A DNA stretch of 51,548 nt. It comes from Candidatus Infernicultor aquiphilus (GTDB lineage Bacteria; Atribacterota; Phoenicimicrobiia; Phoenicimicrobiales; Phoenicimicrobiaceae). Within the stretch, counting starts at the first letter, position 1; each line of letters begins with the position of its first letter. The translations under genes were made by a program, and so were the position numbers. The notes beneath the pieces are model-generated. The model did not search any database. It was not told the DNA's origin and was given only the letters and a program-made list of their open reading frames with translations. The stretch is from NCBI GenBank assembly GCA_002782675.1, contig PFIP01000015.1, positions 1-51,548 on the forward strand, read 5' to 3'. Below are positions 11,905-50,825 of the stretch, in pieces.

Positions 11905-11988
11905 TTCGTATATAGTATATCGTATTGCGTATAGTGTTTCAATTGTTATACTAACCTTGTAACAGGCAGATACAAGATCTGCCCCTAC
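11905..11988. repeat. Intergenic repeats: TATCGTATTGCG tract and GTAGGGGC palindrome
   Basis: Between murE and ftsI. A cgta/tatcgtattgcgtata tract covers about 11905-11935. A palindrome covers 11963-11988; read on the minus strand it starts gtaggggcagat, has loop cttgt and closes atctgcc. A second tract (caacgctatacgctattg, about 12011-12028) runs into the end of ftsI and provides its stop codon. Confidence 0.75.
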
Positions 11989-12022
11989 ATATTATTATAT
12001 ACTTATTTCTCAACGCTATACG

Positions 12023-20966: not shown

Positions 20967-21019
20967 GTAGGGGGCGGATTTATCCGCCCCAAAACGGGTT
21001 CGATGAATCGAACCCCTAC
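20967..21019. repeat. Two adjacent GTAGGGG-family palindromes
   Basis: First unit 20967-20990: gtag then stem gggcggat, loop tt, atccgccc. Second unit 20996-21019: stem gggttcgat, loop ga, atcgaaccc, then ctac. The second is the uninterrupted form of the palindrome that is split by an insert at 44808-44857. A tact/cgata tract follows directly (to about 21038). Confidence 0.85.
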
Positions 21020-44772: not shown

Positions 44773-44883
44773 GTAGGGGTCGGATTTATCCGACCCGTTT
44801 TTATTGCGGGTTCGATGCCTGCCTGTGCGTGCCTGCACGCAGACAGGAATCGAACCCCCGTTTTCACGAGGGCAGGCCCCTAC
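44773..44883. repeat. Composite palindromic repeat with a nested 30-bp insert
   Basis: Three parts. 44773-44796: gtag then gggtcggat, tt, atccgaccc. 44808-44857: the palindrome gggttcgat...gaatcgaaccc split by a 30-bp insert at 44817-44846, which begins gcctgcctgtgcgt and ends gcacgcagacag. About 44868-44883: a half-unit reading gtaggggcctgccctc on the minus strand. The unsplit form of the middle palindrome occurs at 20996-21019. The gap (44674-44932) between alpha-subunit and ferredoxin genes holds no other feature I can support. Confidence 0.85.
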
Positions 44884-47845: not shown

Positions 47846-47870
47846 TTTTCTTATCACCTCTTTATTAAAA

Positions 47871-47937
47871 ATTTACCAATTAGTCGATTTACCAATGCAC
47901 CGATTGACCAATTTACTAATTTACCAATTTACCAATT
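47871..47937. repeat. ACCAAT/ACCGATT repeat tract
   Basis: Overlapping words taccaattta, accaatgcaccgattgacc and tttactaattt. The 19-base word accaatgcaccgattgacc also occurs, on the other strand, in 50777-50820. Confidence 0.75.
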
Positions 47938-47961
47938 AAAATAGTCGTTAGTGAATAAGTC

Positions 47962-48009
47962 GTAGGGGCAGACCTTGTGTCTGCCCGTAGGACAGGCGTC
48001 TCGCCTGTC
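47962..48009. repeat. Two tandem GTAGG-family palindromes
   Basis: Unit 1 (47962-47986): gtag then gggcagac, loop cttgt, gtctgccc. Unit 2 (47987-48009): gtag, gacaggcg, loop tct, cgcctgtc. Both are perfect. An aactatatactcgatactaat tract (about 48053-48075) separates this from the aminotransferase stop. Confidence 0.85.
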
Positions 48010-50596: not shown

Positions 50597-50660
50597 ATTT
50601 TGTCAATAATTACATTTGTATAGTAATCAAATTGTGGTTATTAGTTTCAATAATATGGAG

Positions 50661-50745
50661 AGGGCACAATTCCTGTCTGCGTGCGGACCTGTCTGCGTGC
50701 GTACACGCACAGGCAGGCACGCACAGGCAGGCATTGTGCCCCTAC
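50661..50745. repeat. Composite palindrome with a 60-bp doubly nested insert
   Basis: On the minus strand the host palindrome is gtaggggcacaat ... gaattgtgccct. Its loop holds 60 bp (50673-50732). That 60-mer is one 30-bp unit (14 bp gcctgcctgtgcgt plus 16 bp gtccgcacgcagacag) split after base 14 by a second complete 30-bp unit (gcctgcctgtgcgt, gtac, gcacgcagacag). The same 30-bp type sits singly at 44817-44846. Confidence 0.88.
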
Positions 50746-50776: not shown

Positions 50777-50820
50777 AATCGGTCAATCGGTGCATTGGTC
50801 AATCGGTAAATCGGTCAATT
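50777..50820. repeat. ACCGATT/ACCAAT repeat tract (inverse copy)
   Basis: Read on the minus strand: gaccgatttaccgattgacc, then aatgcaccgattgaccgatt. Same family as 47871-47937 in opposite orientation. It ends within a few bases of the activator gene stop. Confidence 0.75.
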
Positions 50821-50825
50821 GTCCT

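Follow-up and report, generated by a model that had tools for sequence, protein, structure and literature searches.

Palindromic units of 27 or 30 bp have inserted whole, with neither loss nor duplication of target bases, mostly between a purine and C and, at asymmetric hairpin tips, in a fixed orientation. We put the chances at about even that they represent a new family of single-stranded-DNA hairpins that ranks with the smallest known mobile DNAs, has spread through more than 20 phyla and into archaea (perhaps via viruses), lands on hairpin apices including its own, and extends conserved genes by short in-frame peptides. It has long been asked by what means tiny palindromic repeats move and whether they pass from one species to another. 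Because one fixed sequence can be traced through empty and occupied sites, self-nesting and orthologous presence or absence across phyla, the target rule, the orientation and the range now become measurable.

A 30-bp unit nested in a copy of itself

The window, that is, the whole stretch of 51,548 nucleotides that was analysed, corresponds to contig C81:1-51548 of a 1.67-Mb genome assembly (173 contigs, 92% complete). According to the original prediction, a 60-bp insert in a host palindrome consists of a 30-bp unit split by another 30-bp unit, and an exact parse bears this out (Table 1). One unit occupies the exact centre of the host GGGCACAATT/CATTGTGCCCC and the second lies inside the first; host arm, outer half, intact inner unit, outer half and host arm follow one another, and 30 + 30 = 60 bp leaves a remainder of 0. 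The host is a palindrome, as predicted, but the outermost part of its left arm no longer pairs with the right (GAGGG versus GTAGGGG on the other strand of the right arm). DNA folding of the composite gives -32 kcal/mol (z = -7.0). The locus is intergenic, with an acetate-kinase-family gene on one side and a sigma-54 activator gene on the other, and the inner unit is also found standing alone at many loci of the genome.

Table 1. Parsed features of the window, and host palindromes with their occupied and empty copies (a slash marks the host midpoint)
Feature	Position	Strand	Basis or empty copies
Host REP-type palindrome, left arm GAGGGCACAATT	50660..50671	+	exact parse
Outer 30-bp unit, left half CCTGTCTGCGTGCGGA	50672..50687	+	exact parse
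Inner intact 30-bp unit CCTGTCTGCGTGCGTACACGCACAGGCAGG, in outer unit between GGA and CAC	50688..50717	+	exact parse
Outer 30-bp unit, right half CACGCACAGGCAGG	50718..50731	+	exact parse
Host palindrome, right arm CATTGTGCCCCTAC, terminal CTAC (GTAG on opposite strand)	50732..50745	+	exact parse
Third unit copy CCTGTCTGCGTGCAGGCACGCACAGGCAGG, exact centre of palindrome GGGGTTCGATT/CATCGAACCC	44818..44847	-	left-arm match and parse
Empty host palindrome GGGGTTCGATTCATCGAACCC, same type as host occupied at 44818-44847	20996..21016	-	empty-host search (C81:20996-21016)
Window host GGGCACAATT/CATTGTGCCCC	occupied at window 50660-50745		3 empty (C50:2278, C85:5592, C97:2427)
Host GGGGTTCGATT/CATCGAACCC	occupied at window 44818		17 empty
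Host GGGGTTCGATT/TATCGAACCC	occupied at C108:715		15 empty
Host GGGGCGTATTG/CAATACGCCCC	occupied at C114, C140, C29, C152		8 empty
Host GGGGCTCGATT/CATCGAGCCC	occupied at C66:16093		8 empty
Host GGGGCACGATG/CATCGTGCCC	occupied at C114:1096, with changes		7 empty

At the left end the three window copies have 13 bp in common (CCTGTCTGCGTGC), and likewise 13 bp at the right end (ACGCACAGGCAGG), not the 14 and 12 bp given originally; the 4-bp middles in which the copies were said to differ are GGAC, GTAC and AGGC. The left arm is matched three times in the window, compared with 0.00 times in shuffled windows (100 shuffles). The family as a whole consists of imperfect hairpins of the form CCTGTCTGCGTGC-N1..6-ACGCACAGGCAGR, with termini that start with CCTGTCTG and end with CAGGCAGR. 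All six reading frames of the units are open (no stop), as they are in 21% of shuffled units. Coding selection as the cause of the 27/30-bp lengths was rejected in view of that figure and of intergenic copies that are equally long. A known RNA family was also rejected, since the matches in Rfam were hairpins, mostly microRNAs, that all stayed below the threshold.

Related palindromes share the outer stem CCTGYCTG/CAGRCAGG but have inner stems of other sequence (e.g. CGAG/CTCG, CCGA/TCGG), which may point to a wider superfamily whose inner stems covary. Two other kinds of repeat were observed in the window. Short tandem-like repeats of AATCGGTCAATCGGT motifs, with inverted copies adjoining the palindrome, lie at 47870-47929 and 50777-50821, and a separate GTAGGGGCAGACCTTGTGTCTGCCC palindrome family, dispersed in the genome, is present and unoccupied at 11962-11996 and 47954-47988.

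Empty and occupied hosts across the genome

Genome-wide, there are 56 matches to the left arm and 70 to the right arm (at most one mismatch) and 0 to the reversed patterns; the parse of this genome covers these matched stretches rather than every base. The comparison of occupied with empty palindromes, which the original prediction had proposed, recovered empty copies for six occupied host types, dozens in all. Occupied copies exceed empty ones by exactly 30 or 60 bp at the midpoint and show no target duplication, including none of the 2-10 bp expected of a MITE of a DDE transposon. Exceptions to the exact step have gained or lost arms (C28, C78 and C152) or have a decayed flank. Copies without any empty host, or units of randomly varying length, had been named as outcomes that would speak against insertion; empty hosts are present, and the lengths are mostly 27 or 30 bp.

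Same-orientation self-nesting occurs at six loci of this genome, in four of the six between GTA, GGA or GAA and CAC. Opposite-orientation nesting was found at one locus of this genome and in G007, a relative, as well as in five further contigs from different groups, and self-nesting is also seen in unrelated genomes of several phyla. The composite of host and units is found again, with 98% identity, at C28 and in the relative G006. Thus, composites also multiply as blocks, and the occupied hosts outnumber the independent insertions. Separately, the copies at C39:137, C102:2017, C108:2230, C120:2576, C122:9362 and C172:15285 lie in one recurring non-palindromic context, AAAACTTAAAGC...AAAGCGAAAAACC, which is another repeat of this genome serving as host.

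Target preference

At the asymmetric tips of about seven independent hosts, a small number for an orientation count, the unit always reads ATT(CCTG...CAGG)CAT or ATT(unit)TAT. Among 150 distinct sites outside this genome, the base before the unit is A or G at 135, the last base of the unit is G or A at 149 and the next base is C at 102. Hairpin tips, scored by the complementarity of the flanks, are overrepresented relative to shuffled pairings both in this genome (13 of 42 sites with a score of at least 7, 3.7 expected) and elsewhere (16 of 147 with a score of at least 6, 4.8 expected), the two thresholds having been picked from a table of several. Existing hairpin tips, both those of REP palindromes and the unit's own, are strongly preferred, yet most sites elsewhere are non-palindromic. 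The original idea of repeated insertion at hairpin tips is supported by the empty hosts, the self-nesting in unrelated genomes and the orthologous absence described below, but tips are not the sole target.

Both junctions are R/C (R, purine), as would be predicted if a double-stranded site-specific recombinase acting in trans, e.g. of the IS110 or IS607 type, swapped a two-base RC core shared by the unit ends and the target. Moreover, insertion sequences are known to target REPs (PMC1525189). Such recombination is nevertheless unlikely in our view: a 30-bp double-stranded circle is physically implausible, and both the apex preference and the self-nesting would be left unexplained.

Presence and absence in relatives, and insertion into genes

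A helicase gene that this genome shares with G007 (91.6% identity over aligned DNA) contains here a 60-bp nested insertion that is absent from the G007 copy. The G007 copy in turn has a nested 60-mer of its own, different in sequence and located some 1.6 kb away, at a place that is unoccupied here. At the window locus, the insertion is absent from the orthologous place in nine relatives (G003-G006 and G009-G013), and G011 has an empty REP at that spot. Template switching or slippage during palindrome replication, which could build nested hairpins without any mobile element, would fit the arm changes at C28, C78 and C152. As an account of the insertions, however, we consider it very improbable: exact 30-bp insertions are found in six unrelated hosts and in genes, with homology of at most 1-2 bases, the identical unit is present in distant genomes, and gene sites that are occupied in one orthologue and empty in another disfavour it.

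The unit is inserted in frame in a sirtuin gene and in NadA, where it forms a 10-residue insert at a place at which quinolinate synthases in the PDB have an 11-residue gap. Inside ORFs, 27 units have the same orientation as the gene and 15 the opposite one, without evident bias. This speaks against an RNA route, in which a tiny hairpin RNA would be ligated into loops of other RNAs and then reverse-transcribed into DNA, as do the many sites outside hairpins. A route of this kind has been discussed for yeast mitochondrial GC clusters (PMC4478555), loops are a plausible site of RNA ligation, and of the two strands the T-arm strand has the more stable RNA fold (-15.9 kcal/mol versus -12.7 for its complement). 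All in all, we regard it as doubtful, to about the same degree as double-stranded recombination.

Host palindromes resemble REPs of a resident RAYT gene

The hosts are GTAGGGG...CCC palindromes that occur across the genome and carry GTAG at their foot. In a Y1 gene at C78:23714 (180 aa), the first codons contain GTAGGGGTTCGATTTATCGAACCC and the end carries GTAGGGGTCGGATTTATCCGACCC, the two being oppositely oriented, and further copies lie outside the gene. GTAG REPs at both ends of a RAYT gene are a described arrangement (PMC2817692), and the hosts look like the GTAG-type REPs of this resident gene. The best NCBIfam match of its protein is REP-associated tyrosine transposase, with 66.8 bits and thus below the 80-bit cut-off; a Y1 protein at C54, one of four in the genome (C54, C3, C64 and C78), is narrowly above it (80.3 versus 80). 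Two host-type palindromes form a REPIN-like doublet at C93:8194-8300. It was also observed that the first and last codons of the short RAYT gene (C78:23714-24028, locus L049) are themselves GTAG-REP palindromes, which places REPs within coding sequence at both ends.

The original prediction had suggested looking for a RAYT elsewhere. Such a gene is present, but it pairs with the host palindromes and not with the inserted unit, which, unlike a REP, has no GTAG at its foot. No unit (sought by the CCTGYCTG/CAGRCAGG motif) lies beside any of 23 Y1 loci, and no mobilising enzyme was found among the Y1 genes examined there. A Y1 match is present in 7 of 8 unit carriers among the relatives, the exception being G006 (8 copies, 90% complete), and in 33 of 40 other carriers, leaving 7 of 40 without; the corresponding figure for relatives without the unit is 36 of 53, and Y1 is only slightly commoner in carriers. 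The RAYT as mover of the unit was rejected, since no unit stands at the 23 Y1 genes and the presence of Y1 fails to separate carriers from non-carriers.

Range across prokaryotes and viruses

An identical 25-base core is found in at least 116 genome stretches, nearly all of them MAGs, named for more than 20 phyla; the scan covered one genome per species, and the phyla are those of the record titles as deposited, without re-classification. Among the matches listed, the titles name Planctomycetota, Verrucomicrobia with Kiritimatiellae and Lentisphaeria, several deltaproteobacterial groups, Nitrospinota, Nitrospira relatives, Methylomirabilota, WOR-3, Stahlbacteria, Bipolaricaulota, Actinobacteria, Bacteroidota, Spirochaeta, Mariprofundaceae, Thiosymbion, Betaproteobacteria, Deferribacteres, Tectomicrobia, Alkaliphilus, Neomarinimicrobiota, Latescibacterota, Kaiserbacteria, Atribacteria, Thermodesulfobacterium, Omnitrophota, Aminicenantes, KSB1 and Anaerolineales. 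The archaeal carrier, one Methanosarcinales MAG with a single 3.8-kb contig, is the weakest case. Copies number 1-99 per genome in 40 carrier genomes, with 0 matches to the reversed pattern in all of them, and often one loop variant prevails, which suggests amplification within genomes.

The unit is also present in 36 viral-contig stretches. One 27-kb virus-like contig, IMGVR_UViG_3300044786_000060 (L239, L249, L255 and L265), contains at least six copies, some of them within reading frames, and is a possible vehicle between hosts. Plasmid and phage collections gave weak partial matches alone (E 0.4-2) and E. coli gave none, with a 30-base query that limits sensitivity. In a search for a gene common to the unit neighbourhoods, the recurring families came mostly from viral contigs related to one another or were common genes, and none was obviously a transposase.

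That the named carriers are MAGs or other uncultured genomes, and that plasmid, phage and E. coli records hold no convincing match, is what an artefact of assembly, adaptors or contamination might produce. We consider such an artefact extremely unlikely, given that one genome holds as many as 99 copies spread over many contigs with 0 reversed patterns, that conserved genes contain the unit in frame, that its position differs between orthologous genes, and that many independent assemblies carry it. DNA of near-minimal size thus seems able to pass between distant lineages and to give genes such as nadA extra peptides.

Proposed mechanism

We are evenly divided for and against a mechanism in which the unit is a single-stranded hairpin element mobilised in trans by a Y1/HUH-like enzyme, as the candidate class. 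Double-stranded circles of 30 bp would be too stiff, and cut-and-paste transposition would be expected to duplicate the target; a folded 30-nt strand is favoured because neither objection applies to it. The moving form would be single-stranded DNA folded into a hairpin. A strand-specific nicking-joining enzyme provided in trans, for which a Y1 HUH enzyme (IS200/IS605 or RAYT-like) is the likeliest candidate, would cut at R/C on both sides of the hairpin and join it into R/C sites exposed as single strand, e.g. in hairpin loops during replication or at the apex of an extruded REP. The apex of the inserted unit would then offer a fresh target, giving rise to nested palindromes; slippage between the repeated arms could afterwards add or remove arms, and REP and unit are also copied as a block. 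Single-strand joining by a Y1/HUH-type enzyme fits the data because there is no duplication, the orientation is fixed, both junctions have the same dinucleotide and apices are preferred.

Comparison with known systems

Cyanobacterial small dispersed repeats (SDRs) of about 20-30 nt insert in other repeats and RNA hairpin loops and are known from one phylum. The original prediction had likened the unit to them; compared by description only, the likeness holds for the very small size of the repeated insertions, but the unit is not limited to one lineage and is common to very distant prokaryotes. REPs and REPINs, too, are short imperfect palindromes; RAYT-type Y1 transposases mobilise them in trans, probably in single-stranded form (PMC2817692, PMC3116915), and the host palindromes share with them the GTAG motif and the position at both ends of a RAYT gene. 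The inserted unit, in contrast, has no GTAG and no flanking RAYT, enters coding sequence, and stays the same in sequence from phylum to phylum, while the REPs of different RAYT lineages are unlike one another. Set beside IS200/IS605-like transposition, the unit shows no duplication, an R/C preference and a fixed orientation in about seven asymmetric tips.

Rickettsia palindromic elements also lie in frame within protein genes, as the unit does in NadA, the sirtuin and the helicase gene, but they are about 150 bp long and restricted to Rickettsia and relatives (PMC10969869), compared with 27-30 bp here. Yeast mitochondrial GC clusters are tiny GC-rich hairpins in AT-rich DNA that merge together and are transferable; they differ in a putative target duplication (AG) (PMC4478555), of which there is none here. 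The short palindromic repeats of Volvox carteri organelle DNA are often found one within another, and their composites recur at several places, so that they, too, are nested short hairpin units. However, the Volvox units measure 11-79 nt, are AT-rich or differ in other ways, have TTTA loops and belong to the organelles of one alga (PMC2670323), whereas the unit described here has a fixed length of 27/30 bp and occurs in many prokaryotic phyla and in coding sequence too.

No report of the unit family was found in the literature searched, most subscription journals being outside the search, and 11- to 13-mers of the unit retrieved from literature text only titles on unrelated subjects, where they are probably primers. 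Nesting has precedents; for the fixed tiny size, the R/C rule at apices and the cross-phylum range we could find none in that literature. Few mobile DNAs may be as small as this unit or have travelled as widely.
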